Under the pieces are notes generated by a model that saw only the letters and a program-made list of their open reading frames with translations, searched no databases and was not told the origin of the DNA. A program made the position numbers and the translations under genes. Source: Antennarius striatus (taxonomy: Eukaryota > Chordata > Actinopteri > Lophiiformes > Antennariidae). From it: 64,000 nt of DNA. The stretch spans positions 10,330,501 to 10,394,500 of the forward strand of contig NC_090785.1 of assembly GCF_040054535.1 (NCBI RefSeq), given 5' to 3'. Below, one piece after another: positions 18,180 to 64,000 of the stretch (position 1 is its first letter; the number at the start of each line of letters is the position of its first letter).

Positions 18180-20099
18180 AAGAAGGAAATGCTTAATCAC
18201 AGTCAGGAAAGTAGATAAGGGGACTTGGTGGTGGAAAGAGGACGTACAGGAGTGTATACAGAGAAAGAGGTTAGCTAAGAAGAAGTGGGACACTGAGAGG
18301 ACTGAGGAGAGTAGACAGGAGTACAGGGAGATGCAGCGCAAAGTGAAGGTAGAGGTAACAAAGGCCAAACAAGGGGCTTTTGATGACTTGTATGCTGGGT
18401 TGGACAGTAAGGAGGGAGAGAGTGATCTATACAGGTTGGCAAGACAGAGACAGAGATGGGAAGGACGTGCAACACGTTAGGGTGATTAAGGATAGGGATG
18501 GAAGTCTATTGACAGGTGCCAGTAGTGTGATGCGAAGATTGAAAGAGTACTTTGAAGACTTGATGAAAGTGGAAAATGAGAGAGAACAAAGACTAGAAGA
18601 GATGACTGTTGTGGACCAGGGAGTAGCAAAGATTAGTCAGGATGAAGTGAGGAGGGCATTGAAGAGGATGAAGAGTGGAAAGGCAGTCGGTCCTGATGAT
18701 ATACCTGTAGAGGTTTGGAAGTGTCTAGGAGAGGTGGCAGTAGAGTTTCTGACTGGGTTGCTCAACAGGATATTAGATAGTGAGAAGATGCCTGAGGAAT
18801 GGAAGAGAAGTGTGCTGGTGCCAATTTTTAAGAACAAGGGAGATGTGCAGAATTGTGGCAACTACAGAGGAATACAATGAAGTTATGGGAAAGAGTAGTG
18901 GAAGCTAGACTAAGGGCAGAAGTGAGCATTTGGAAGCAGCAGTATGGTTTCATGCCAAAAAAAGAGCACTACAGATGGAGTATTTGCTTTGAGGATGTTG
19001 ATAGAGAAGTACAGAGAAGGCCAGAGGGAGCTGCATTGTGTTTTTGTAGACCTGGAGAAAGCTTATGACAGGGTGCCCAGAGAGGAACTGTGGTATTGTA
19101 AGAGGAAGTCTGGAGTGGCAGAGAAGTGTGTGAGAGCGGTGCAGGACATGTATGAGGACTGTAAGACAGTGGTGAGGTGTGCTGTAGGTGTGATGGAGGA
19201 ATTCAAGGTGGAGGTGGGACTGCATCAGGGATCAGCTCTGAGCCCCTTCTTGTTCGCTATGGTGATGGACAGGCTGACAGACCAGGTTAGACAGGAATCT
19301 CCATGGACTATGATGTTTGCAGATGACATTGTGTTTTGTAGTGAGAGCAGGGCAGAGGTGGAGGAGAAGCTAGAGAGGTGGAGGTTTGTCCTGGAAAGGA
19401 GAGGAATGAAGGTTAGCCGCAGTAAGACAGAGTACATGTGTGTGAATGAGAGGGACCCGAGTGGAAGAGTGAGGTTACAGGGAGAAGAGATCAAGAAGTT
19501 GGAGGATTTTAAGTACTTAGGGTCAACAGTTCAGAGCAATGGAGAGTGTGGAAAAGAGGTGAAGAAGCGTGTACAGGCGGGATGGAACAGGTGGAGAAAA
19601 GTGTCACGTGTGATGTGTGATAGAAGAGTTTCAGCTAAAATGAAAGGAAAGGTGTATAAAACTGTGGTGAGACCAGCGATGTTGTTTGGTCTAGAGACAG
19701 TGTCACTGAGGAAAAGACAGGAGACAGAGCTGGAGGTAGCAGAGATGAAGATGCTGAGGTTCTCTTTGGGAGTGACCAGGATGGATAGGATCAGGAATGA
19801 GTACATCAGAGGGACAGCACATGTTAGAGGTTTTGGAGATAAAGTCAGAGAGGCCAGACTGAGATGGTTTGGACATGTCCAGAGGAGAGATAGTGAATAT
19901 ATTGGTAGAAGGATGCTGAGTTTTGAACTGCCAAGCAGGAGGCCTAGAGGAAGACCAAGGAGGAGGTTTATGGATGTAGTGAAAGAGGACATGAAGGTAG
20001 TTGGTGTGAGAGAAGAGGATGCAGAATACAGTGCTAGATGGAGGCAACTGATTCGCTGTGGCGACCCCTGAAGGGAAAAGCCGAAAGGAAAAGAAGAAG
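18180..20099 (+). mobile_element. 5'-truncated RTE-type LINE with reverse transcriptase, frameshifted
   Basis: The endonuclease is missing; the copy begins in the endonuclease-RT linker. An open stretch at 18944-20071 encodes most of the RT: CVFVDLEKAYDRVPREELWY, LHQGSALSPFLFAMVMDRL, the intact catalytic box MMFADDIVF (about 19312), KLEDFKYLGSTVQSNGE, and the C-terminal ARLRWFGHVQRRDSEYIGRR ... RWRQLIRCGDP. Upstream, 18133-18880 is open but in shifted frames. A 16-bp loss near 18877, compared with the copy at 58393, is one cause. The 3' end is GCGACCCCTGAAGGGAAAAG plus an AAG-rich tail. A 9-bp duplication AGTCTTTGG flanks it (18171-18179, 20098-20106). It is not autonomous. The family resembles Expander/RTE elements of fish; that name is from memory. 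Confidence 0.9.
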
Positions 20100-27325: not shown

Positions 27326-30130
<2,805 letters not shown>

Positions 30131-31580: not shown

Positions 31581-34500
31581 ATGTCGACAGACATGTCACC
31601 GAGTACTTTGAACCTGGAGTCCCAGCTTTTGTCAATAATGGACGTGCTGGTGAAAGCGGCGGTAGCTGAAATTAGCCAACTGTTCTCGGAGAGCTCATCG
31701 TCGCTCCGCTTGCATTTATCCCAGAGCCTGCGGGAAAACGAAGCCCTGAGGATGAGGATGAAGGTGACGAGGAGTGAGCTCTTCTCGCTCAGGCTGCAGA
31801 CCAGGAGCAACCGGCCGGTCAGCCGCTTCTCCCCTTTCAGGGCAAATACTCCCAAAACACGGGCTAAGTCACAAGGTAACTCTCATGTAAACTACCAGCT
31901 GCTATAAAGTAAAGTCGACAAGTATTTGCTATTAAATTGCTGCTGCTTAGTATCACGTGATGCATGCGTCATGTGTACCGATTATTATAGTTAAGTACAC
32001 TTTAATGTTTGATTTCCAGAGATGCGGATTTTTTTTAAATTTAAAATAAATAATAGGATAGCAGAAATTAATATATAATTTCTTCATACTTCATTGATAA
32101 CCCTTTGACAAAAATTACAACACTCTCACGTAGATCTACAAGTCAAAGGCTGATCTAGAGTTTTAAAAACATCTTGTAGATCTGGTGATCCTGAGTATTT
32201 ACATTTATTGTCTAGCTACTGAGTTAATAAAATTACAATCAACTTTCTTATTTGTGTTTTGATCGTTTAATTCACAATTCTGGTGCTGTTCTGGTGCTGT
32301 TGATATAACCTCACCTCCTGCTCATTCGTCGCCATCCGTGATCTTGAAATTAATGTTTTTTCTTCTTTTAAGTTGTCATTCGGCCATCAGCGGCTCAAAA
32401 GGCTGCTGCTGAAAGGTCTTCTATTACCCTGCAACCAGAGAACAAGTCATCTGCCCCTGCCACTCAAGTGAAGGTAATCAAAGTTCAAATAATGTATGTT
32501 GTTTCATTAATGCCTTTGTCTGCTGATTGAATTTAATTTTTATTTATTAGTGTGCTGAAGTGGAGACTCCAGATGTCATTCTCATCAAAGATGAAGATGA
32601 GGTTGGTGGATGTGGACCCATTGTAGGTTCGTAGCTGTTATTTTAAAATTGTGTTTTCTGATCATATACCTCTGTAAATCTGTCCATCTCATTCTCCTAA
32701 ACATGATGTCTTAACTATGACATTAACTATGACACACAAATTTCTATGGGGGTGGGGATAGTATTTGATCAAATTCAGACCTGTGTCCTTTCTGTGTGGC
32801 GTTTACTACCGGAGTAGGCTACTAAGTTTTCCAAAGACGTGAATGTGAATAGGCACAGTGGCGCAGTGGGTAGCGCTGTCGCTGCACAGCAAGAGGATTC
32901 CTTGCTCGACCCCCACACTGTATGGAGTTTGCACGTTCTTCCCATGTCTGTGTGGGTTCTCTCCAGGTTCTGTGTCTACATGTGGCACCACGGTGCACTG
33001 GTATCGTACCTGGAGTGTCCCCTACCTCATGCTCCCAGTTAGCTGGGATAGGTTCTAGCACCCTGCGACAGTGGGTTTTGAATATGAATGATTGAATTTG
33101 AAGAGTTGTTTGTAGTGTGTTGGCCCTGTGACAAACCAGCTTCTTGTGCAGAATGTACTCCACCTCCTAGCATCAGCTGGGATTCAGGCCTTTCCCCTGT
33201 GATCCTACTAAGTATGAACATTTATGGAAAATTAAAGGATGGAAGAGTCTAATTTTCAGAGATGTGATGACATTTTATGTATAAAGGTATTTTAATATTT
33301 GCTTCTGGTTGTGATTCAGCACCATTACTTAAGAACAGAGGACAGTAACACTGTAGATCACACCTGATCAGACATGAATTGGTTGAAAATAATCCTACTT
33401 CTACTTTGATCCACATTGAAACTGTAGAGATTGTGTAGATGTTGTGTTTTGCATCCTTATCTTTAAATTTGTAGCCTCTTCAGGTTTTATCAGTTGATAA
33501 ACTTGTGATCTTGCACCAAAGGTCAAAATCACTTTTTCCCTTTTTTTTTTTTTGTCCCTTCTTCAACTTATTGGTTTTGCTGTTATCCACCTTGAAATGG
33601 TTGTCTTGCCTTTTGAAGAAATTAGTTACTTCTCTGCAAGAATACCCTCGCAGTGAAGGCGACATGTTTCTCACTACAGACTATTTAAGAATGATTGTCA
33701 TGATAGTAATAACTTCAATGCTGGTTAATATTTCTCTCATTTTCTTCTACTGAATTCCTTCAAAGTCTTACCAACATACTTGAGACAAACACAGTTGTAA
33801 GCTGTTGTGTGATTGGTGTGGCATGAAGCCAAGAAACATGAGTTCATAGTTCTGGTTAACTATGTAATACCTGACTGTCAGTTAGCAAACCCTCGAGGGC
33901 TGACAGGAATTCTGTGTATTGCTCAAAGTAGACAAATAGGTCAATTGATTAATTACGATCATTGATTAGACAGCAGTTTCTTCTACGTAACAGCAAAAGC
34001 TGCTGACTTTGCATGACAAAATTTAGGCAGGTATGAACTGGCCATAATATTTGTAAATTGTTGGTTTACTCATCAGGAGATTGATCACTGTACACATAAA
34101 TGACATGCAGCATGAGAAGTACGATGTAATCATTTTAATAATAAACTACCCAAACTGCATATTTTGTGGTGTTATAGATACACATCTCATTATACTAACT
34201 TGCAGCTTCCTTGTGTTGAATCATGGATTGTGGAAAACAATAAGTAGGCTTTCAGACTGTTTTATTGCTGGGCAGAGCATAGTAAAGCAAGATGAATGGT
34301 ATGAGTCAATTTATGACACATAAGTGGTTGGTCAGACATCAATGCACTTGTTGTTTTAGCTTTTAGTCAGCGTCTGACAATCTGGGTTTGCTGATGGTGC
34401 TTTTAGCTGCTCTGTACCAAATATTTCTTGTAGTGTGATTTTTTTTTTCACTCAAACTTGATGTGTAATATGGATTGTCTGACATTTATGACATCACTTT

Positions 34501-35319
34501 GTGGTTTGTCTTTTAGGTCAGGACGATGTTGGAAACATCAGAACTGATTGTGGTGTTGACACAGGAACTCAGACTTTGCAGTCTTCCTCCCTGACGGGTG
34601 ATCACAATGAGCTGAGGATCGTGAGTGTTCATGGAGCAGGAGATGGGACGCTGCAGGAGACAAGCGACACCCTCTTCACTGCCTCGGAGCTCCAAGCTTT
34701 CAGCTCCCTGTCTCCTGATAACAACGCAACCAATGACTGTCTGCTCAATTTCACCGCTGGTGCCAGTGACACAGCGCCGATGAGAGGGATGCAAGATAAC
34801 ACTGTTGGGCTGGGAAGAAATGGTCAACTGGAAAGAAATCATTCCATTCAGATGGTTTCAACAGCCCTGAACACTGAAACACCAACAGTAGGAGCTGACG
34901 ATCACGTGGAGTACCCCAGTCATGTCAGCCAGTTCTCCCAACAGCAGAATGTCTTCCCTTACACCTGCAACAAATCCCTGGACTGTAGCTTCTGCGGGAA
35001 GTGCTTCCTCACCCGCGAAGAGCTGATCGTACATCGAGCAACTCACACTGGGGAGACGCCTATTCCTTGTTCCTTTTGTGGGAAGCCTTTTGTCAACAGG
35101 ACCACACTGACCATTCACATGCGCATTCACACCGGGGAGAAGCCATATGCATGCACGCAGTGTGGGAAACGCTTCACACAGAACGGTAGCCTTAAGATCC
35201 ACCTTAGGACTCACTCTGGAGAGAAGCCGTACACCTGCAATCAGTGCAGCGCCAGCTTCAACAACCCCAGCAATCTGCGCAGGCACATGATCACACACAG
35301 CACCAACGATGTGCTCTGA
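31581..35319 (+). CDS. C2H2 zinc-finger protein, four fingers, 4 exons, 424 aa
   Basis: A probable nuclear DNA-binding transcription factor. Exons: 31581-31875, 32373-32473, 32551-32626, 34517-35319. Phases close to 1275 nt. The N-terminus (about residues 8-70) is leucine-rich and helical (LESQLLSIMDVLVKAAVAEI ... LRENEALRMRMKVTRSELF), like the dimerising N-terminal helix of many fish zinc-finger genes. An acidic VILIKDEDEV segment, a common SUMO-type motif, lies near residue 145. Four consecutive fingers occupy about 312-420, joined by TGEK/SGEKP-type linkers. In finger 1 the linker reads TGETPIP. No KRAB, SCAN or BTB domain is present. A SINE lies in intron 3. The orthologue is not identified. 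Confidence 0.88.
32849..33066 (+). mobile_element. tRNA-derived SINE in intron 3 of the zinc-finger gene
   Basis: GGCACAGTGGCGCAGTGGGT is followed by an AGCAAGAGGATTCC head, a diverged B box (CTTGCTCGACCCCC), GTATGGAGTTTGCACGTTCTT and a terminal AGCTGGGATAGGTTCTAGCA. It belongs to the same broad family as the copy at 1491. Confidence 0.7.
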
Positions 35320-43065: not shown

Positions 43066-46000
43066 ATGGAGCAGTGTGAGAGTGCAGCGGCTCTGCTGGA
43101 GTCTGTCAGGGAACAGGAGGTGCAGTTTGAGCAGCTGACCCGGGCGCTGGAGGAGGAGAGGAGGAGGGTCGGCCTCCCTGCCACCAGCCCCTCAGCCCTG
43201 GGTCGCCCCCTCCCTCACACACAGGTAATTCTTTCCGGTGAACCCGGTCACGTCCATCCATTCCCTCATTTGCATTCACGGCTCCTGATTTCGACTTCCA
43301 TCCAATAGCCGGATCATCATTTCTCCGTCCGTTCTGGAATGGCTTCTCACTGAGCTCCATGCATCCGTCAGTCATCTTTCTCGCCCTCCTCTTCTTCACT
43401 AGTGCTCGGCAGATGTGTGTGTCATTAATTGTTGTTCTTTTCTACATTATCTCCTAAACCATCCAGCTTTTATCCCCACATTGTGCACAGCATGTGCATT
43501 AACCTGATATTTTCTGCCATTGACTGATTGCATCCTTCTGACAGAATGGAACGCTGAGAATGATTGTTTCAGTAATTCAACCCAATAACCACCTGCCTGA
43601 GAGCCTACTGGCTATCTGGGGGTCTTCAAGCATGTCTGTGACCCTTCATAAGCGTGTAGCTGCTCTCATGGTCCACATGCATGACCTGTGATTACAGGGT
43701 CGACATCTTGCACTGGTAATTCTCATCTCCAGTGCTGCAGCAGTGTGCAGTTTCAGAACAATCTGTACATACTGTACGTTTGGGTTCAGACTCGACCACA
43801 ACTGTGTGGTTGGAGTTAAAGTTGATGTCCTCCAAGTGTTTTTTTTTATACTTGAGTCTGCTGTTGACATGAAAATCACCATTATCTTTTCTGTTTATCT
43901 TTCTTGTCCATGTCCCTATAAATATTTAATTTGTTCCATACCATTATGCTGTACATAAAAATTTAATGCGATTGTGTTGCTATTAAATAGGCAGCGGGTT
44001 GTTATCGGGAGAACCTGATTTAAGAACATTAGTAATGATGAGAGTTTTCACAATCATCTCAATAAGCAATCAAACCCTAATGTGACCTCAGCGTGCGCCG
44101 ACTTCTAACACACTACCTACTAGCCATCATCACACACATTCAGCATGCCTACTGTGTCACTCACCTAAAGCACACGAAGACCCCCCCCACCTCGGTGGAA
44201 TCTCAGGTATTTTGCTTTGTTTCAGCATGTCCTGTCATGAAATGCTGCCATGCATGTGTCACATAATGCGGCATCCAGTGTTTGTTTTTTTTTCATTTTA
44301 AAATGGAATTTTTTTTTTCCCTGTCTAAATAATTTAACAAAGACTTGTGTGGTTCCAGCTCACATGACAATGTGTGATAAAGTCACTGGTATCCTTTCAT
44401 GCTGCATGATGTGAGTGATTTAACTGTGCAAATGTTGTTAAAGTTGGGTGTTTGGATGGAATAGCAGTCAATAAGCAGCTGTTTCCCGTGAACATAAAGG
44501 TTATTAAAGTTTATTTTTCAGTATTTAGCCATGTGCATTATTTAGAGAATATGTGAGCACATTGCTGGTAAAATGGAGTTTTTGTTGATGTATCTGTATT
44601 TTTTTTAAATGTGTTTAAGGTCACCTGTGGTGATTTTGAAGACTGCCGTTAGGATGATCTAATCACATAACTCATCCTAACAGCAGTTTAGCCGTCCTGT
44701 GTTTCAAACGTTTGTGTTTGGCCAAAGCTGCTGAAGGAGAATCTTACTGTGTTCTCAGGCCTCATTGTCAGCATTGTTGAACCCTCACTGAGTAGAGAAC
44801 GTGTTCTCAACTATCTCCGGCCTTTAAGGACATTAGATGAAATCTCATGTTTTGTCTCATTGAATCCTTGGAAATAACATTAGGTTCAGTTTTTAGTTAC
44901 TTCAAATACCGAGGAAAACCAACGTATGTGTTGTATTTCTATAAGCGGTCAGGAAGATAAGGGTACTTTTGTTTCTGCAGTTTCACAATGTGAACATTTC
45001 TCCATCACCCGAGCACAATTCTCGCTATACCTTTTTTTAGCCGACTGTCAGCTGGAGTAGAAATGTACCAGTACTCTTTTTGTTCTAGGAGCCAGTCTAC
45101 ACTTCCTTTTGCATCCTAATAACAAATCTGCCTCCTTGTGGACACACAGTGATATAAAATGCAATAACATACTGATACAAATTAAATGGGTGATAGATTT
45201 ATTTTTTGTGGTATTCATTCATCACAGTGAGCGCTGATGAAAGACGTCGTGATGAGACAGACTTACAGAGAAGCTTGGCCATGCTCTGATTTATTTCGCT
45301 GCTGTTCCATTTATGTTAATGTTGCATAAATGTGTTCCCATGAATTCTGAAGTTGCCCAAGTCCTACTGTGTGGCAGTTATGTACTACATAACAGAGTGT
45401 GGCAGGAAGTTGACGTGAGTGGCTACACTCGAAAATGTCGTCCTCATCTTGGAAGTGATTGAGAGATCCTGAACTCGCAGAGACAGTTTGGTCAGTAGTG
45501 AATGTGCTCTATCAGCAGTAACATCATCTGGCTGGTTTGCAGGAAGTTGACAGGGGAAGCTTGCTTTGGACCTCACTGTTATGTATTTCACTAAAAATTG
45601 TGTGTCTTTAGAATCCAACAGTATACGTTACACAGTTGTGTCTTTCTCTTTCATCCCAGAATGGGCATTTAGGGGAGGCAGACATAGAGCGATTGAAACT
45701 GACTGACTCCTACATAAACGGCACACAGGTATGGGTTTGAGTGTGATGTTGCATGTAAATATTTTCCGTGTATTCATGCGGTTGAGTCCGTGTGATTTTA
45801 AACATGTTGTGTCTCATACAGTACAGAATGGTTGACCCGGCGCACGGAGCTCTTGATGAGAGCTACACTCCCGAGGATGACTCCCAGGAAGTTCACTCCG
45901 TCTTTTCTGAAGAAGGAACGGCACGACGGCCAGAGAATGGGGTAAATGTTTCACACATGTACAATCGTATGATCAGCCAGGAAACAACGTCCCCAGTTTT

Positions 46001-49000
46001 TTTTTTACCCATATTATTGCTGTTAAATTTTAATATTGTGCTCTCTTCCTGATCATCTTTTAGATGAAGAAACCAATGTCACGCACGGTCCTGCCCCCTG
46101 ACTCGATGTCCATTGACGGGGGCTTGTCAATGACCGGTATGGGGGGCTACAGCGCTACGATGGACCGTCCTTACAGGCAGCCTGGAGTCGGAGACTACCC
46201 CACAGCAACAGTTCCCCGAAACTACCACTATGGCCCTGTGGGGGGTTACGATGATTACCGTGGAGGCCCCCCTTCAGAGGCGTACCCCAGCCTGAGCAGG
46301 GGCTCACACATGGACGAACGCTATAGGTAAGAGAGAGGGAGAGAGAGCTGTGAATGTTATCTTCAGTGGAATGTTTTATTTTGAATTTTACTTCGGCTTG
46401 TCTTATATTCTTTATCACAAAACAAGACCTTGAATCGTAACAAAGTTATGTAATAACTCGAAACAACAGATATTTTCAGCTCAACTTCAGATTTTAGAAT
46501 AGAGTAGACTGTTTCAGCGGTGTGGGACTTGATTTCTTTCTGTAAAACTACATCATATCACTGTGAAATGTTCTGGTAAAGGATGGGGGGCTCATTCATT
46601 GTGAGGTTAAATGTCTATATTATTCTATCCTCTTTAACTGAGCTGTCCGTAGAGTTAGTTCTCTTGTCATCAGGGAGTGGAGGGATAACTTCTCCATAGA
46701 GACAAAGTTTTTCATATGTATTGTTTTGTACTTTAAACAACACAAGCAACATACAATGAAGTTCCATATCATTCGAGTGATGGACCTACAGCTAGCTCCA
46801 AAAATCAGGTTCTTATACTTAGGGCTGTGATGATGTTCTCATTCCCACAATACTTTGGTCTACCTGTTGAGAAGGTGAGCTCAGTACCGTCACACCCACT
46901 GTTTTTTTTTTTTTTTTTTGTGTGTGTGCAGTTGTTTTTTGAGTGAAAGCTAAATGCGTGCATTTCGTCTGGTCTGTGCAGCAGAATCCCTGTCATTTTA
47001 TCTGGCAAGGCCAGCTTGCTTGCATGTCCTGTCACTGCTTACGTTTTGCCCCCCTCCCTGATTAGGAAGATGCCAGCAGCACCAATGCAAACCAGAATGT
47101 CCAGTCAGCATTAAAATAAAAACTGAAATGTTCCACTCCTTTTTAAAGTGAACTTATAGCAAACGGTACAGCTTAAACATCATGGAACAAATACAAAATG
47201 TTCTAACTTTAATGTCCCTCCTACAGAGGGTTTTGGAATGATGTATGCGTGTTCTGTTACTCTCTAACAAGAGCCACATTTCTGGTTAAGTCGATCCATG
47301 TAAAAGGAGAGCATTCAGAAGGGAGTCTGTAACAGTTTTGTTCTCTTTGGTCCTCTTGTTGTTTACCCAGGCCGGTCGATGGCTACAGGACTCTGGACTC
47401 TGGCTACCGGGCACCGAGCCGTCAGCAGATGGACCCGTACGCGGCGCAGCCCCAGGTGAGCCGGGGGATGAGGGCTCTTGGCTCGGCTTTGGAGATGCGT
47501 TACGGTCAGGGACACTTCGGTCTGGAGGATGACCAGCGCAGTGTGGGATATGATGACTACGGCATGGGCCCCCTACCCATGCACCCTGGAGGTTATGGTA
47601 CTATGCCACGCCTAGGACCTGGCCTTGGTGGTGTAGACAGGCGACGACTCAGGTAAAACACAAACATGTTAAATGCATTTCAATCAGACCGTGTGTGGAG
47701 CTAACCAGTGTTCTTTCCCCTGCATCGTGCAGGAGCTGTGAAGATACTTTAGATAGCGACATGGTGGCACCTGACCCTTATGCTTGGGGCATTCCAATGA
47801 CGATGGAGAGGGGGAGCATGGCTTCACTCGACAGCACGCTGAGGAAGGGCCCTCCCACTTCCTGGAGACAGCCCGAGCTGCCCGAGGTCATCGCCATGTT
47901 AAACTACCGTTTGGATCCTGTCAAGACCAATGCAGCCGCCTTCCTCCAACATCTCACATTTAAAAATGATAAGGTAAAGACATTGTGGCATTCAAATGCA
48001 GAATAGTGTATTAAGCAGATTTCTGTGTTTTAATAACATCAACTGGACTTGTTAGAAACAATCTGAAGATGTTGACCTGAAGAACCCTCAGTTCTCATTG
48101 AGCAGATGATAATCTGTATGAATTTTATTTGTCAAATTCTTGCTGTGAGCAGAATAAAAAATAAATTCGGTTTTGTGTCCAGGTTAAGTCGGAGGTGCGT
48201 CGCCTGAAGGGTATCCCCGCTCTGGTGTCACTGCTGGACCACCCCGGCAAGGAAGTGCACCACTCGGCCTGTGGAGCGCTGAAGAACATTTCATACGGGC
48301 GAGACCAAGACAATAAAATTGCCATAAAGAACTGTGATGGAGTGCCAGCACTAGTCAGGTTACTGAGAAAAACCCACGATCAGGACCTCACTGACACCAT
48401 CACAGGTATCAACGTCATGGTTGTAACATGAATCATTCCTTAGTCACTCTCTTATCCAGATTCTGTCTGTATTGAAAGTAAAAGTAATACCTCTGTCTCT
48501 CCAGGAACCCTGTGGAATCTCTCATCCCACGACTCTGTGAAGATGGAAATTGTGGACCACGCCCTGCATGCTCTAGCTGATGAGGTCGTTGTTCCCCACT
48601 CTGGTTGGGAGCGAGGGAGCAACGGAGGGGAGGAGAGCTGCAAACCACGCCATTTGGAGTGGGAGACTGCCTTGACCAACACTGCTGGCTGCCTTAGGTA
48701 CAAGTTCTCAATGGATTGAAATGAGTCAGTCCAAGAAGGAGAAATAGAGAATTATTTTTAGAAGAAAACCTATAATTATGGGCTTAACTTGTCCTCTCCA
48801 ACAGGAATGTGAGTTCAGAACGCAGTGAGGCCCGACGAAAGCTAAGGGAATGCACAGGATTGGTGGATTCACTCATGTACGTTGTCCAATCGCAAATCAA
48901 CCGCAAAGATGTGGATAATAAGGTACCTTAAGTTAGCTGAGAGGTTTTATCTTTGGGTCTTTTAAAAATATCTTTAAAGCATTGTTAAGTATTTTAATCT

Positions 49001-52000
49001 AGAATGAATTTATCCCCTTCCCTTATCTTTCTACAGTTGGTGGAGAACTGTGTGTGCCTCTTGAGGAACCTTTCCTATCAAGTCCACCGTGAAGTTCCTG
49101 GAAGTGAGCGCTATGTGGAGACCATTCCCGTCAACCAAGGGCCGGCCTCCTCCAACAAAGGTGGCTGCTTCGGCTCTCGGAAGGGTAAAGGTCAGTGTCG
49201 ACCATCGGAGCTCAGCGTGTAGTCACACCTGTAGGTCAGTTCTGTGTGCAACAAGGGAGAAATGATCCGTTTGAAGTCCGATCCGGTTCATGGTGACTTT
49301 AATAAGTAACGCAGACAGATTCAGCTGATTTGTCACTCTGAGGGATTGTTTCCCTGCATCATCAGCACATCATCAAGACCTGATTGGGGAAATCACATCC
49401 AGCTGAAGGACAAAAACTGTTTCAGCTTTTTTTAACAGAACAATAGCCTTTTTTGACAACTCTTGAAGTATTAGTCAGAAATACTTCCTGCTCTGACTGA
49501 GTGCATGTAAAGAGATTTGATAGATGGATGCTAGTGGATTTGAGCTTGGTGGTGGGAGCAACTTTGCTGTTTTTTCACACTCTACCACTGTCTTCCTCCT
49601 CTCCTTCTGATCCTTCTCCCATCTTTCTTCCCACCCTACTTCACCTCCCTGTTTTTTTCTCCACTGTGTTTAGATGAGTGGTTTTCCAAAGGTAAGATTC
49701 TCCCTTTGGTGTTCTTGTGAACTTTTGACCACTCTCATCACTCTTTAAACTAATGAAGATTAATGCCTCACTAGCAAAAATTTTGAAAGCATATCACAAC
49801 CAGCTCACAAGCATGACTTCTGGATATCAAGCCAACGACATTGCATGTTCACAAAGCCTGTTACACTCGCTGCATGGTTACATTTTACATAAAGATAGAT
49901 GTCTGTGTTGAATGAAGTCAGATGGACCTGTAGGAAAAGCTTGAAGACATTTCTCTTAGAAGCTTTGTTAGTTCTGAACAGCTGGTGGGTTCTAGTGGTT
50001 GAGGTTGTCATAATGAGTGTGGTTGAACCTATGGGCTGCAGCCCCCCCCCATCCCCCCAACCGTTCTGAACTAGAGAAGGCTCTTGGAATAGAGGTGTAA
50101 TGTCTCTGAGCTTTTCCTGCGTGACCACTTGACTTTATGTGACGCAGATCTACCATGACCTGGATGGACATTTCACATTAGGATATACAGCTTGAGTTTC
50201 AAAGACCAGAGAAGAGGACTGGCATTAACAAACTGTTCATCTCACCCATCTTTACTTAAGCCCTGTTATATCTTCAGGATAATATTTTATCTTCTCTTCT
50301 TTTTTTCAATTTGATGTCTTGCTTCAGGTAAGAAGGATGGAGACGATGGAACTGGAGACCAGGTTGACATTCCAAAGAGGACCACGCCTGCCAAAGGTAT
50401 GAGCAGCTCTCCTCACTTTTTCTAACTGATCGGTTTTCAGTGTAGTGAAATAAAAATCCCCTCACTTTAACATTTTATGTTTTTATTAGGTTATGAACTG
50501 TTGTTCCAGCCAGAGGTGGTTCGTGTTTACACATCCCTTCTCAGAGAGAGCCAGAACCCCTCGGTGTTAGAGGCTGCTGCTGGTGCCATCCAGAACCTGT
50601 GTGCTGGCAGATGGACTGTTAGTATCTTTTGTTAACAAAAACTCTGTTTTTGAATGAGATGTTAGGAAATCAAATGAGTAATATCATCAGATCAAAATGT
50701 CTCAATATGAGGAAGTTTAATCTGTCGTTAGTTGAATTCATGATATTGCTGTGTTGATTCATTTTTCCTCTCAATCCTTTTGTTCTTCAGTATGGTCGAT
50801 ATATCCGGGCCACCGTGCGCCTGGAGAAAGGTCTTCCTATGATGGCAGAGCTGCTCTCTCATGGCAATGACCGCGTGGTTCGGGCAATGTCCGGAGCGTT
50901 GAGGAACCTGGCCATTGACAATCGTAACTGTGAACTTCTTGGTAAGCATTTTGGTTTGTGAACCCAAAGAGAAAAACTAACGTAGCAAAAATATTTTAAA
51001 AAAAGAATAAAGTTCAGGTATTGTTCAGCATTCTATGCGCTTTAATAGGTGCATGCAAGTTTCTGAACTGAAGGGGTTTACATTTGCATCATTCAGATTT
51101 CCTTGCTTCACTGCCCGTCTCTCCTGCAGGCTTGCATGCTGTGCCGCACCTTGTTGCCAACCTGCCTGGAGGCCAGAGCCAGTCTGGACGCGCTCTGTCC
51201 GAGGAGACGGTGGTGTCGGTTCTGAGCACGCTTGCTGAGGTGCTAGGCAACAGACTGGAGGCAGCGAAGACCCTTCGTGCATCACAGGGTATTGAGAGGC
51301 TGGTGCTCATCAATAAGGATGGGTAAGTGTGTTCTGTGAGCTGAGAGAACAAGTATTCTGTATAATATTAAAAGATGTGGTAAAAATGAGAATTTTGGAT
51401 CTGTTTGTACTGCAGGAAGCGTTCAGACCGTGAAGTGCGTGGGGCCGGCCAGGTGCTGCAGCTTATCTGGGCTCACAAAGAGCTGCGCCGACCTTTAGAG
51501 AAAGATGGCTGGAAAAAGACCGACTTCATGGTCAACCTGAACCCGAACATGGGCACGACCAACGGCCCCAGCACACGAGCCAACGGCACCCACGAGGACA
51601 GCACCACGCCGCTGCTGGACAGAGGTGAGAGTGCAAGAAATAACGTGTGATTAGAATATTTAAGCAGTTAATCAGTGGTAGAACTCAAGCTGTGTTTTCA
51701 TTTTGTTTAACTGGATGGTTTCCTGTGTTGAAGGAGAAAAGAGGGACATGATTCCACTGAATGACCTCGGCCCTGGTTAGTACATTTGTTATCACTGCTG
51801 ATGAAGACATTGTAGCTGTGTTTGTCAGGATGAGATGAAGCATCGTGTTTATTTCCCCCCAGAGGCTTACTCTACACTGGACCAGAGGGAGAGGAGACAC
51901 ACTCTGGATGAATCCACAGACACTTTACCGGTACTTTATAATATCTCACGTCTTCTCACACACTGCTCACTTAACAACACTAACTCATCTCCTGCACCGC

Positions 52001-53246
52001 TATGAATAATTCCTGTATAACCTCTGGCAGCCTTTATAAACTTCACAATGACTGCAAATTTTCTTTTCTCACACTCACCTCCTGTCCTTCTTCTCTCTTT
52101 GTCTTTGGTTGTCTCTCAGCGAGGGGTATATGGGGGCAGAAAGGGCTCCTTGCCCCTGTTGGACTCATACGATGGTTAGCCCCCCCTCCCCCCTTCTCTC
52201 CTCTAACCTCCCTCTGCATGTAACAGCATGGTATGTTGAACGGGTCTCTTGTCCTGCATGGACACCACAAGCTCATTTTGTTAACTTCTTACCCTGACAA
52301 TGTTGGCTTTTATACCAAAAATCAGAAGAAATCACCAACTTCTGTTTTAGTTCCCTCTTGTGGCTTCATTGGGTATTACAATACTCTAGGCCAGGATTTG
52401 TATCTTTATGCCACCACAATGGACTGTGGGCTTATTTTGTTCATTTAATTGTAGGTAACAGGTATAATCTATCAGCAACTCACAGGGCAGAAATCAGAGA
52501 TATTCACACACGCTTATTCAGTTGTGTTTTTCAGTGGAGACATCGTTCATCTCAGTTTGCTCGCTATCATCTATGATGCAGCATCATCTGTCCACATCAG
52601 TGCAAATGGATGAAATGAGAACTAGCAGCTAAGCGCATTCTATTGATTAACTACATGTCAGGTTTGGCATTAATAAAAAAAATCAACTAGAGTAAATGAG
52701 AGAGTGTAATTTACCTCAGTGTATTTATAAGTTAAATAAATCACACACTTACTATTCTTCACATTGAAACATTTTACTGTAAAGTTGTTAGGTCTGTTTG
52801 CAGGGAGTCAATCACTGTAATAAAAACAACTTCATGCTTAAACTGATAGTTTTAATTTTTCTTCTTATAAATTCAAATTAATGTTTTTTATCACCAGGAC
52901 GTTGTTCTTAATGTTAATAAATGAGTGGTGACACAGCAAAAACTCATCCGAATACAAGAAAAAATAAAACTTCCCCTCCAGCATCTGAGAGCTTGTTAAA
53001 CAAGTCATAGAAGTAAATCAGACGAATCTTGGTTTAGGGTTAGTTTTATAATTCTGCCATGCCGTACTTAAACCACACAAGTCCCTGTGTTGCCTCCAAT
53101 GTTTTCTGTGAAAATGTCCCACAATTAATTTTTTCTGATTTTATACTGAATCTCTTTTAATCCATGTTTTTTCCTCTTTTCCTGTAGAAAAATTGATAGT
53201 GTGCATCACCCAGACCGGGCCATCCCTACCCTACCACTGCTACTGA
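43066..53246 (+). CDS. ctnnd1: Catenin delta-1 (p120 catenin), about 20 coding exons
   Basis: An armadillo protein that binds the cadherin juxtamembrane domain, stabilises adherens junctions, regulates Rho GTPases and can enter the nucleus to bind Kaiso. Coding exons: 43066-43224, 45660-45728, 45822-45941, 46064-46326, 47371-47652, 47733-47973, 48183-48405, 48505-48697, 48805-48922, 49037-49190, 49674-49691, 50328-50396, 50490-50617, 50791-50941, 51130-51322, 51416-51624, 51734-51775, 51863-51930, 52120-52174, then 53188-53246. All phases agree. The N-terminal coiled coil reads LLESVREQEVQFEQLTRALE. The Gly/Tyr/Met-rich regulatory region spans about 95-330. ARM repeats cover about 340-840 (RQPELPEVIAMLNYRLDPVK, GRDQDNKIAIKNCDGVPALV, NCVCLLRNLSYQVHRE, ELLFQPEVVR). 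Length is 937 aa, or 919 aa if translation ends at the TAG at 52177-52179; human is 968. The ATG follows a good acceptor at 43055. Confidence 0.93.
49674..49691 (+). other. ctnnd1: ctnnd1 18-nt micro-exon (exon C equivalent)
   Basis: Flanked by TTTAG and GTAAGA, this exon encodes DEWFSK, against DEWFSR of mammalian exon C. It sits between KGK and GKK. With the exon the basic run is split; without it the protein reads KGKGKK, the arrangement that forms a nuclear localisation signal in mammals. The 18-nt length keeps phase, so inclusion is optional. Confidence 0.85.
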
Positions 53247-58392: not shown

Positions 58393-60239
58393 GAAGGAGA
58401 AGAAGGAGAGGAAGAAGGAGAAGAAGGAGAGGAGGAAAGTGTGTTTGTAGGTAGAGAGAGAAAAGGATAGCCAAGAGTATAGGACTGAGAGTAGGAATAT
58501 TGAATGTTTGGACTATGACAGTGAAAGGTAAAGAGTTGGTTGACATGATGTAGAGAAGGAAGGTACTGTGTGTCCAAGAGACCAGGTGGAAAGGTAGCAA
58601 GGATGGAAGTTTAGGAGCAGGGTTCAAATTGTTCTATCATGGTGTAGATAGGAAGAGAAATGGAGTAGGAGTTATCTTGAAGGAGGAGTTCGTTAGGAAT
58701 GTCCTCAGAGGTAAAAAGAGTCTCAGAGTGATGAATCTGAAGCTAGAAACAGAAGGTGCGATGTTCAATGTTGTTAGTGGGTATGCTCCACTGGTAGGAT
58801 GTGAGCTGGAGAAGGAGAAATTCTGGTTGGACTTTGATGAAGTGATGCAGAGCATACCTAGAAGTGAGAGAGTTGTCATTGGTGCAGACTTCAATGGACA
58901 TGTTGGTGCAGGAAACAGAGGTGATGAGGAGGTGATGGGCAGGTTTGGTATCCAGGAGAGGAATGTAGAAGAACAGATGGTAGTTGACTTTGCAAAAAGG
59001 ATGGAAATGGCTGTAGTGAATACTTTCTTCCAGAAGCGGCAGGAACATAGGGTGACCTATAAGAGTGGTGGTAGGAGCACACAGGTAGACTACATCTTGT
59101 GTAGATGGTGTAACCTGAAGGAGATCAGTGACTGCACAGTAGTGTTAGGCGAGAATGTAGCCAAACAGCATAGGATGGTGGTGTGTAGAATGACTCTGGT
59201 TGTAAGGAAGATGAAGAGGGCAAAGGCAGAGCAGAGGACAAAATGGTGGAAGCTAAAAAAGGAAGAGTGTTGCATGACTTTTAGGAAGGAGTTAAGTGTG
59301 CTGGTGAACATTTTGAAGAACAAGGGAGATGTTCAGAGTTGTGGCAACTACAGAGGAATAAAGCTGATGGGTCATACAATGAATTTATGGGAAAGAGTAG
59401 TTGAAGCTAGACTAAGGGTAGAATTGAGCATCTGTGAGCAGCAGTATGGTTTCATGTCAAAAAAAGAGTACTACAGATGCAGTTTTTGCTTTGAGGATGT
59501 TGATAGAGAAGTACAGAGAAGGTCAGAGCATTGTGCTTTTGTAGATCTGGAGAAAGCTTATGACAGGGAGCCCAGAGAGGAACTGTGGTATTGTATGAGG
59601 AAGTCTGGAGTGGCAGAGAAGTATGTTAGAGCGGTGCAGGACATGTGTGAGGACTGTAAGACAGTGGTGAGGTGTGCTGTAGGTGTGACAGAGGAGTTCA
59701 AGGTGGAGGTGGGACTGCATCAGGGATCAGCTCTGAGCTTTTTGTTCACTATGGTGATGGACAGGCTGACAGATGAGGTTAGACAGGAATCTCCATGGAT
59801 GTTTGAAGATGACATTGTGATCTGTAGTGAGAGCAGGGAACAGGTGGGGAGAAGTTGGGGGGGGGGTTGTCCTGGAAAGGAGAGTAATGAAGGTTAGCCG
59901 CAGTAAGACAGAGTACATGTGTGTGGATAGGATCAGGAATGAGTACATCAGAGGGACAGCACATGTTAGAGGTTTTGGAGATAAAGTCAGAGAGGCCAGA
60001 CTGAGATGGTTTGGACATGTCCAGAGGAGAGATAGTGAATATATTGGTAGAAGGATGCTGAGTTTTGAAGTGCCAGGCAGGAGACCTAGAGGAAGACCAA
60101 AGAGGAGGTTTATGGATGTAGTGAAAGAGGACATGAAGGTAGTTGGTGTGACAGAAGAGGATGCAGAAGACAGGGTTAGATGGAGGCAACTGATTCGCTG
60201 TGGCGACCCCTGAAGGGAAAAGCCAAAAGAAAAGAAGAT
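58393..60239 (+). mobile_element. Internally deleted RTE-type LINE with endonuclease and 22-bp target duplication
   Basis: One open stretch (58629-59897) joins an APE-type endonuclease to part of the reverse transcriptase. The endonuclease part includes VVSGYAPLVGCELEKEKFWL, VVIGADFNGHVGAGNRGDEE and STQVDYILCR. The RT part includes VNILKNKGDVQSCGNYRGIK, FVDLEKAYDREPREELWY and GLHQGSAL. The linker and RT N-terminus are deleted at about 59308. About 340 bp of thumb sequence is missing near 59930 compared with the copy at 18180. The catalytic box reads FEDD, not FADD. The last 320 bp encode the shared C-terminus ending RWRQLIRCGDP and the GCGACCCCTGAAGGG end. The flanking 22-bp duplications (58371-58392 and 60238-60259) differ at two sites. 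The GAAGAAGGAG repeat at 58391-58437 may be its 5' end. It is not functional. Confidence 0.88.
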
Positions 60240-61732: not shown

Positions 61733-64000
61733 ATGTGGTGCTACCAGAAGCCGGGGTTCCACGGCCTCCTCCTGGCTGAGCTGCAGCAACAGCAACAGCG
61801 TAACCAGTTCTGTGACACTCTGCTCAGGACAGAAGGTATTCAGCTCAAAGACACGCGACATGTTTCATTTTGTCCCATTCAGGTTAGTTTAACTAACTTT
61901 AAGATCATGTTTTGTTCCTGATTGAGATGTTTCCTGTCCCACAGGTGTATCGGTGCCAGTGCACAGCTGCATCCTCTCAGCCTTCAGCCCACACATTTCC
62001 TCCGTTCTGTCCTCCGAGCCATCGCCTCCTCCAGGACAGAGCCATGTGGTAGACTTTGGAGCTCTTGGCGCCTGTTCGCTGCTCCATGTGGTCAGGCTGT
62101 TTTACTCTGGGGAGATGGCAGGGGAGGGGGAAAAAGAGAAGCAAGAAGCTATTTCTGCTGCAGCTAAGCTAGGCATCCATGGGCTGGTTGAGGTCACGAG
62201 AAGAGATAATAAGAGTAGACATGGGGAGGAGAGAAGACGGCACGCAGAGGCAGAAGTGCAGACGGAGCCTGAGGAAAGTGAGGGGAGGCGAGAGAAGTGG
62301 AGGAGAGACGTGAGGGATGGGCTGACGTTTCTGTGGAAGGAGACACCGTCAGATGGTCAAAAAGATGCGTGGACTCAGACGGAGGAGCTGCTGGGAAACG
62401 CTGCTCCGTCTCACCATGCAGTGTCTTATGACACCATTGATATTGCTGCTTTCCAGAGTCTGAGAGAGCCGGAACCGAGTTTTATTTCCTCTCAAATGCC
62501 CTATGTTCCTTTTGGCCTTATCTACCAACCAGATGCAAACCAAGCACACCAGCCTTTCTCTGCTGCCACGGACGACTTGCAAGGATCTGCAGCAGCTGGA
62601 CAGACACAGCCAAACACAAACGTCTCCTCCTCCATCCCATCTGGGTCCTGTGACCAGAGCTGGTTGGCCAGTCCAGGAGGGGCACCCAGAGATGTCGCAG
62701 TAAATGGAGAATTGGAGAACCAAAGGTTGAACCAATTTCGAGACAACATCCCAGGATACATCGACTACTTCTTCAAACCAGAGGCTGAGGGCGACTCCCC
62801 CAGTGGACGTGGAAGGGGAATGCGGACAAGAGGAGCGGCAAATGTCAGGAGAGCCAGGACAGGTGAGAGAAGAGCCAGGAGACCACAAGCAAGTACAGGA
62901 CGGAGGGGTAGAGGTGGGTTAACCCAGAAGGTGGATGTTCAGGAGGTGGGGGTGAGCAGTTTACAGAAGTTCTTCCTGCAGAAGTCAAGGAGGAGGGTCT
63001 CCAAGACGGGTCAGGGCGGCGGAGCTGCAGGTAGGAGTCTGTGCCTAGAGACCAGAGAGCTTCTGAAGACGGCGAGGAAAGGGAGGAGAACAGCGCTTGT
63101 AACATTTTGGAAGGACAGCCCAAGCAGAAATGCACCGCTGAGAGGAGGAGGAGCCGGAAACACGAAGCGTGGAAAGAAGAAGAATGCTGCCCCAGCATCG
63201 AAGCAGGTGAGAGCGCTGGTAGATCTGCTAAGCTCAAATCAAAAAAAGGGGAATTCTTTTTTATTTTCATTTACTTGATCAAAAATATCAATATATGTGA
63301 AATGATAAACTTTATGTGTTACTAATCCTCTTTTCTCCTTGGCTGCAGGCTGAGCGTCCTGTCAGCAGGCCTCAGAGGGTGAAGGCTAAACCCACATCAC
63401 CTCCCCTCTCCTCCCCCCGCATGCAGCCCTCCAGTACCTTATGGTCCTCAAACCCCTGCGTCCAGCCTTCTCCATCAACCAGTCTCTTGTCACCCGCTGT
63501 GTCTTACATGTCTCCAGCAGTGTGCCCCCTCCCCACCACCTCCGTCTGTCCCTCGGTCCCTCCGACTCACCAGGAAAATATCAGTCAACTGCTGGAGGAC
63601 GTGTCGCTAGATTTTGACATTTTACCAAACAACAACATTCCGCATCCTCAGCGTCTTCCTCCAGCTGGTAGCAGCAGTAGGACCTCCGTTGAAACTTCTG
63701 CCCAAATCAAACAACACCACGGTGCTGCAGAGGAAAGAGGAGCTGATGGTTCCAGTTCTGCAAACGCTGAGGCGCTGGTCGTGCAGGAGCAGAGCGAGTT
63801 GGACCTGAACGAGATGCTGGAGAACATCCTCCTCTCCTTTGAGCAGCACTTTGACAGCCGGGCTGCCGGGAAAGAAGTGGAGATGGGTTGCCAGAGCGAC
63901 ACAACTGCTCCAGCGAGTAGCCCACAATTACCCGAGCGACAGCAGAACAATAGAGATGAAGCACCATCAGCGTCTCCTGATGTTTCTTCTCATGAGAGAC
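61733..64000 (+). CDS. btbd18: BTB/POZ domain-containing protein 18, 3' end outside the window
   Basis: A nuclear BTB protein; mouse BTBD18 promotes transcription elongation at pachytene piRNA loci in the male germ line. Exons: 61733-61835, 61945-63206, then 63349 to the edge, still open. The first ATG in frame in the exon (acceptor at 61721) is 61733, out of step with another ATG at 61725; an upstream coding exon is possible. The BTB domain covers about residues 8-110: FHGLLLAELQQQQQRNQFCD, VPVHSCILSAFSPHISSVL, VVDFGALGACSLLHVVRLFY, SGEM and AISAAAKLGIHGLVEVT. It matches human BTBD18 in order and spacing. Beyond it lie long polar regions, a basic Arg/Gly-rich stretch (about 325-365: GRGRGMRTRG, RRARTGERRARRPQ, GRRGRG), and acidic leucine motifs (LLEDVSLDFDILPNNN, LDLNEMLENILLSFEQHF) like the C-terminal ELEEILDFML of human BTBD18. 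Confidence 0.82.

Follow-up and report, generated by a model that had tools for sequence, protein, structure and literature searches.

The exon C switch of p120-catenin is already known in mammals; what we add here is a fish member of the system and a comparison of related genes. In PMC4996431, mammalian exon C is described as optional, with C isoforms relatively abundant in mouse brain, and amino acids 622-628 of p120 are described as both RBD2 and nuclear localization signal (NLS). Exon C residues placed inside this NLS prevent nuclear GFP in HeLa cells, just as mutation of the NLS does. Overexpressed p120 isoforms with C give no branched cell shape, and exon C blocks branching as does deletion of 622-628 (PMC4996431). 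A second study reports that skipping of exon 10 in mouse Ctnnd1 makes an NLS appear, and that oligodendrocyte precursors of the mouse contain more nuclear p120 than neural precursors do (PMC7236505); we infer this exon 10 to be exon C. The nuclear GFP and branching results of the first paper and the NLS gained on skipping in the second make sound the premise of the initial annotation that mammalian exon C interrupts an NLS.

Our literature searches were confined to open-licence PMC papers. In this literature we came across no mention of a fish ctnnd1 exon C, and the peptide DEWFSR was found in PMC4996431 alone. According to PMC7821500, 402 micro-exon pairs are common to mouse and zebrafish, and that list may well include ctnnd1 exon C. 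The words ctnnd, p120 and catenin are absent from the main text of a zebrafish micro-exon paper (PMC12626424).

The stretch of DNA analysed here, the window, comprises 64 kb (C10:10330501-10394500) of the 548-Mb genome of Antennarius striatus, and its ctnnd1 gene lies on the plus strand. The features around the micro-exon are:

43066 to 51624, plus strand: 16-exon ctnnd1 coding model, covering this span only; based on splice sites and open frame
49037 to 49190, plus strand: upstream Arm-repeat exon, ending CFGSRKGK, the first half of the basic cluster; its first 31 residues align to human Catenin delta-1 (3l6x)
49191 to 49673, plus strand: intron 5′ of the micro-exon, pyrimidine-rich before the 3′ splice site, with no TGC in its last 100 nt
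49674 to 49691, plus strand: exon C, a micro-exon of 18 nt encoding DEWFSK, with phase 1 on either side; based on splice sites, frame and 16 of 18 bases shared with mouse exon C
49692 to 50327, plus strand: intron 3′ of the micro-exon, 636 nt
50328 to 50396, plus strand: downstream loop exon, starting GKKDGDD, the second half of the basic cluster

The joined frame of the 16 exons is open with the micro-exon (863 amino acids) and without it (857), and Pfam finds Arm repeats in the model. The best PDB match of the Arm region is human Catenin delta-1 (3l6x, E 1e-217), with plakophilin 1 behind at 1.1e-66. This alignment does not extend over the loop with the micro-exon, which is consistent with the loop being flexible or removed in that construct. 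Over one Arm exon of 43 residues, 35 are identical to human Catenin delta-1 in the window gene and 37 in a second ctnnd1 copy on C8, so that the C8 copy is marginally nearer; the corresponding counts are 29 and 25 for two arvcf-like genes, 23 and 24 for two pkp4-like genes, and 20 and 20 for two ctnnd2-like genes. The sequence GKKDG, which we take to resemble human ARVCF, was the reason for considering that the window gene is arvcf. That identity is ruled out by the closeness of the Arm exon to human Catenin delta-1 and by the neighbouring genes. Pfam detects a CH-domain stretch (29171-29377), presumably smtnl1-like, and a BTB-domain stretch (61926-63278), presumably btbd18-like, and SMTNL1 and BTBD18 lie near human CTNND1; these neighbours fit the human CTNND1 surroundings and thus support ctnnd1 over arvcf.

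The junctions of the initial annotation (49190-49674-49691-50328) are borne out to the base by the splice dinucleotides and exon ends. The upstream exon ends at the donor AAG/gtcagt (49190), the micro-exon lies in the context ttag/ATGAGTGGTTTTCCAAAG/gtaaga, with consensus AG before and GT after, and the downstream exon begins at ttcag/GTAAGAAGG (50328). Both micro-exon junctions are in phase 1, falling between the first and second bases of a codon. As had been proposed, the 18 nt encode DEWFSK with in-phase flanks, and the frame is open with and without them. The inclusion product reads ...CFGSRKGK-DEWFSK-GKKDGDD..., and the skip product ...CFGSRKGKGKKDGDD... (in a shorter reading, SRKGKGKKDGDD). 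The translated junction also agrees with the proposal that skipping joins KGK to GKKDGDD and creates a basic cluster, the full core of which is RKGKGKK.

We compared the micro-exon with the bases of mouse exon C, taken from an oligonucleotide printed in PMC4996431; the two agree at 16 of 18 bases, and their peptides at 5 of 6 residues. By eye, one of the two base differences is silent (TTT/TTC) and the other gives K for R. Like the fish exon, mammalian CTNND1 exon C has 18 nt, splits a basic cluster and places DEWFS[K/R] between KGK and GKK; the last residue is K in the window gene and R in mammals. DEWFSK has a net charge of -1, the same as DEWFSR of the C8 copy and the mouse insert. Position, phase and length, together with the peptide and the bases, give good support to the identity with mammalian exon C claimed in the initial annotation, and so does the corresponding exon of the second ctnnd1 copy. 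In the fish skip product the core RKGKGKK is followed by acidic DGDD, whereas the mouse oligonucleotide reads KKGKGKKP. With R as the first core residue and acidic residues after it, the NLS strength of the fish core could differ.

Taken together, the locus reads as a fish equivalent of exon C in p120-catenin, an optional switch that splits an NLS/RhoA-binding cluster, and we hold this whole reading with reasonable confidence. The mammalian splice switch is probably shared with fish, and the micro-exon is most likely optional there too; by analogy, its effect would be the same as in mammals. The exon lies in the loop within the Arm domain, and inclusion should leave the Arm repeats unchanged. 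Skipping would join RKGK to GKK into a lysine-rich cluster, a candidate NLS and RhoA-binding site as in mammals, and inclusion would divide this cluster with the negatively charged DEWFSK and switch its activity off. What the switch decides in this fish may be nuclear versus junctional placement, as the initial annotation suggests, or RhoA binding.

A closely related possibility, to which we give a little under an even chance, is that the exon is optional but acts mainly on RhoA inhibition and cell branching through RBD2, nuclear entry being secondary. It overlaps with the preferred explanation and differs from it in emphasis. The double description of residues 622-628 as RBD2 and NLS, and the block to branching by exon C as by deletion of these residues, speak for it. 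Against it, the isolated NLS no longer brings GFP into the nucleus once exon C residues are placed inside it, which indicates that both effects occur with the mammalian sequence (PMC4996431).

The age of the exon can be judged from its relatives in the same genome. Searches with the upstream exon and with the next Arm exon each gave 13 matches, the latter including an extra match on C19 at E 0.89. Since 10 family members are given for zebrafish and 13 for pufferfish in PMC3013132, extra family copies are expected. We compared eight genes: ctnnd1 on C10 and C8, arvcf-like on C3 and C15, ctnnd2-like on C18 and C20, and pkp4-like on C12 and C24. The names of the relatives are our assignments, made from similarity and background knowledge beyond the match to human Catenin delta-1. 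The exon is present in four of the eight, as DEWFSK (C10), DEWFSR (C8) and EEWFNQ (both C3 and C15), in each case with 18 nt, AG/GT borders and phase 1. The second ctnnd1 copy (C8:24608500-24618400, L019) thus carries its own exon C, ATGAGTGGTTTTCCAGAG, encoding DEWFSR in phase 1; its products read SRKSKGKKDEE on skipping and SRKSK-DEWFSR-GKKDEE on inclusion. Between the two ctnnd1 copies 17 of 18 micro-exon bases are identical; three neighbouring exons share 108/150, 48/63 and 96/129. Where both copies have the same degenerate residue, the third codon position is unchanged in 4/4 cases in the micro-exon and in 18/37, 10/15 and 19/36 in the neighbours, numbers too small to weigh alone. The arvcf-like exons (L020 on C3 and L021 on C15) resemble ctnnd1 exon C in length, phase, EWF core and position after the equivalent Arm exon, and differ from it in the peptide, EEWFNQ. 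The exon is, then, retained in both ctnnd1 copies and has a relative in two arvcf-like genes, which argues that it is old.

No EWF-type peptide was found in the two ctnnd2-like and two pkp4-like genes by a motif scan of about 9.9 kb each, spanning the equivalent inter-exon interval. A wider micro-exon scan, which did not extend to C24 (covered by the motif scan alone), gave nothing convincing, with one candidate in each ctnnd2-like gene, neither containing EWF. Five other matches (C4, C2, C22, C1 and C5), which we take to be plakophilin-like, have no EWF-type motif in about 1.5 kb downstream.

These comparisons bear on whether the exon C peptide also acts positively in its own right, with a partner bound through its W-F core and the broken cluster accounting for a part of the effect. 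By eye, the exon after EEWFNQ in the C15 arvcf-like gene appears to begin G-WKNG, so that this gene retains EEWFNQ without the second, basic half of the cluster. Given the constant EWF core, the peptide may do more than interrupt. EWF is kept in all four exon-carrying genes, including this one, where skipping gives no full basic cluster, and nearly any acidic spacer should break an NLS. On the other side, base conservation may reflect splicing signals within a very short exon, the exon following EEWFNQ in the C3 arvcf-like gene was searched for and not located, and we know of no partner for the W-F core. We regard an own role of the peptide as a tentative and rather unlikely alternative, and regard as similarly speculative its evolutionary form, in which the EWF micro-exon is a functional peptide with its own binding role that predates the ctnnd1/arvcf split, NLS interruption being later or secondary in ctnnd1. 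If the peptide is indeed older than this split, the two ctnnd1 and two arvcf-like genes would make four natural variants separating the two roles.

For the preferred reading, an exon C switch, our results suggest that the switch goes back to the ancestor shared by fish and mammals, and that arvcf-like genes contain a related exon. If it is shared, fish could be used to test the exon C switch in a living animal.

We also looked for candidate splicing regulators, testing 13 motifs in four regions around the micro-exon against shuffles (P values are nominal). Two sites stood out downstream:

49811 to 49876, plus strand: RBFOX-type sites, suggestive only, consisting of three GCATG, of which two extend to TGCATG; starts at +120, +152 and +181 downstream of the micro-exon
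49749 to 49764, plus strand: ACTAAT-N6-TAAT, a weak QKI-type bipartite site; nominal P 0.04

RBFOX-activated exons carry (T)GCATG downstream, kept among relatives. The first 200 nt downstream contain three GCATG against an expectation of 0.31, a count that no shuffle out of 500 reaches; for the 636-nt intron as a whole the nominal P is 0.016, and at least three GCATG occur in 0.6% of 200-nt windows across the 64 kb. Upstream there is a single TGCATG, at 49502 (P 0.126). In the relatives, the 300 nt downstream of the exon contain no GCATG in the C8 ctnnd1 copy or the C3 arvcf-like gene and one in the C15 arvcf-like gene; ACTAAY is likewise absent from this interval of the C8 copy. Because 13 motifs were tested in four regions and the C8 copy has no counterpart within 300 nt downstream, neither the RBFOX-type nor the QKI-type sites are claimed. 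Knock-out of QKI is reported to increase the inclusion of a CTNND1 exon, which the passage concerned does not specify (PMC8464043). Among the other motifs, ESRP-type words upstream (3 against 0.90 expected, nominal P 0.040) and TCTT downstream (10 against 5.94, nominal P 0.050) were somewhat enriched, and PTB-type words upstream were not commoner than in shuffles despite the pyrimidine-rich stretch. SRRM3/4-dependent neuronal micro-exons have a TGC shortly before their 3′ splice site. The window micro-exon is like them in being very short and frame-keeping but, unlike them, lacks TGC in the last 100 nt upstream, and SRRM4-type control was rejected for it; the C8 copy has one TGC, at -5.

The strength of the splice sites leaves room for constitutive inclusion. 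Scored with general consensus frequencies, the micro-exon donor reaches 6.85 and ranks first among the model's 16 donors (the others range from -1.76 to 5.85), and two ctnnd1 copies exist, which would allow the window exon to be constitutive and the C8 exon to be the optional one, the copies having split the work between them once duplicated. We consider this improbable: strong sites are expected anyway for very short exons, and mammalian exon C is optional (PMC4996431).

There are 459 AG-N18-GT stretches in the window (265 on the plus and 194 on the minus strand), and among them the micro-exon alone equals DEWFSR at more than 3 of 6 residues, scoring 5; the other four of the five such stretches in its own 1137-nt inter-exon interval match at one residue at most. 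That it is a chance open stretch or a decayed relic is practically inconceivable, being contradicted by this sole match and by a matching exon in three further genes, with nothing found in its favour.

Several other stretches of the window were noted by eye. Beyond the end of the coding model, an exon-like stretch at 51863-51930 reads EAYSTLDQRERRHTLDESTDTLP and is, we presume, a possible counterpart of mammalian alternative exon A; a possible small C-terminal exon at 52120-52174, flanked by AG and GT, reads RGVYGGRKGSLPLLDSYD. Elsewhere, two ORFs (18926-20071 and 58554-60213) encode similar protein, by its look the endonuclease/reverse transcriptase of a non-LTR retroelement, and an ORF at 34492-35319 contains C2H2 zinc-finger motifs.
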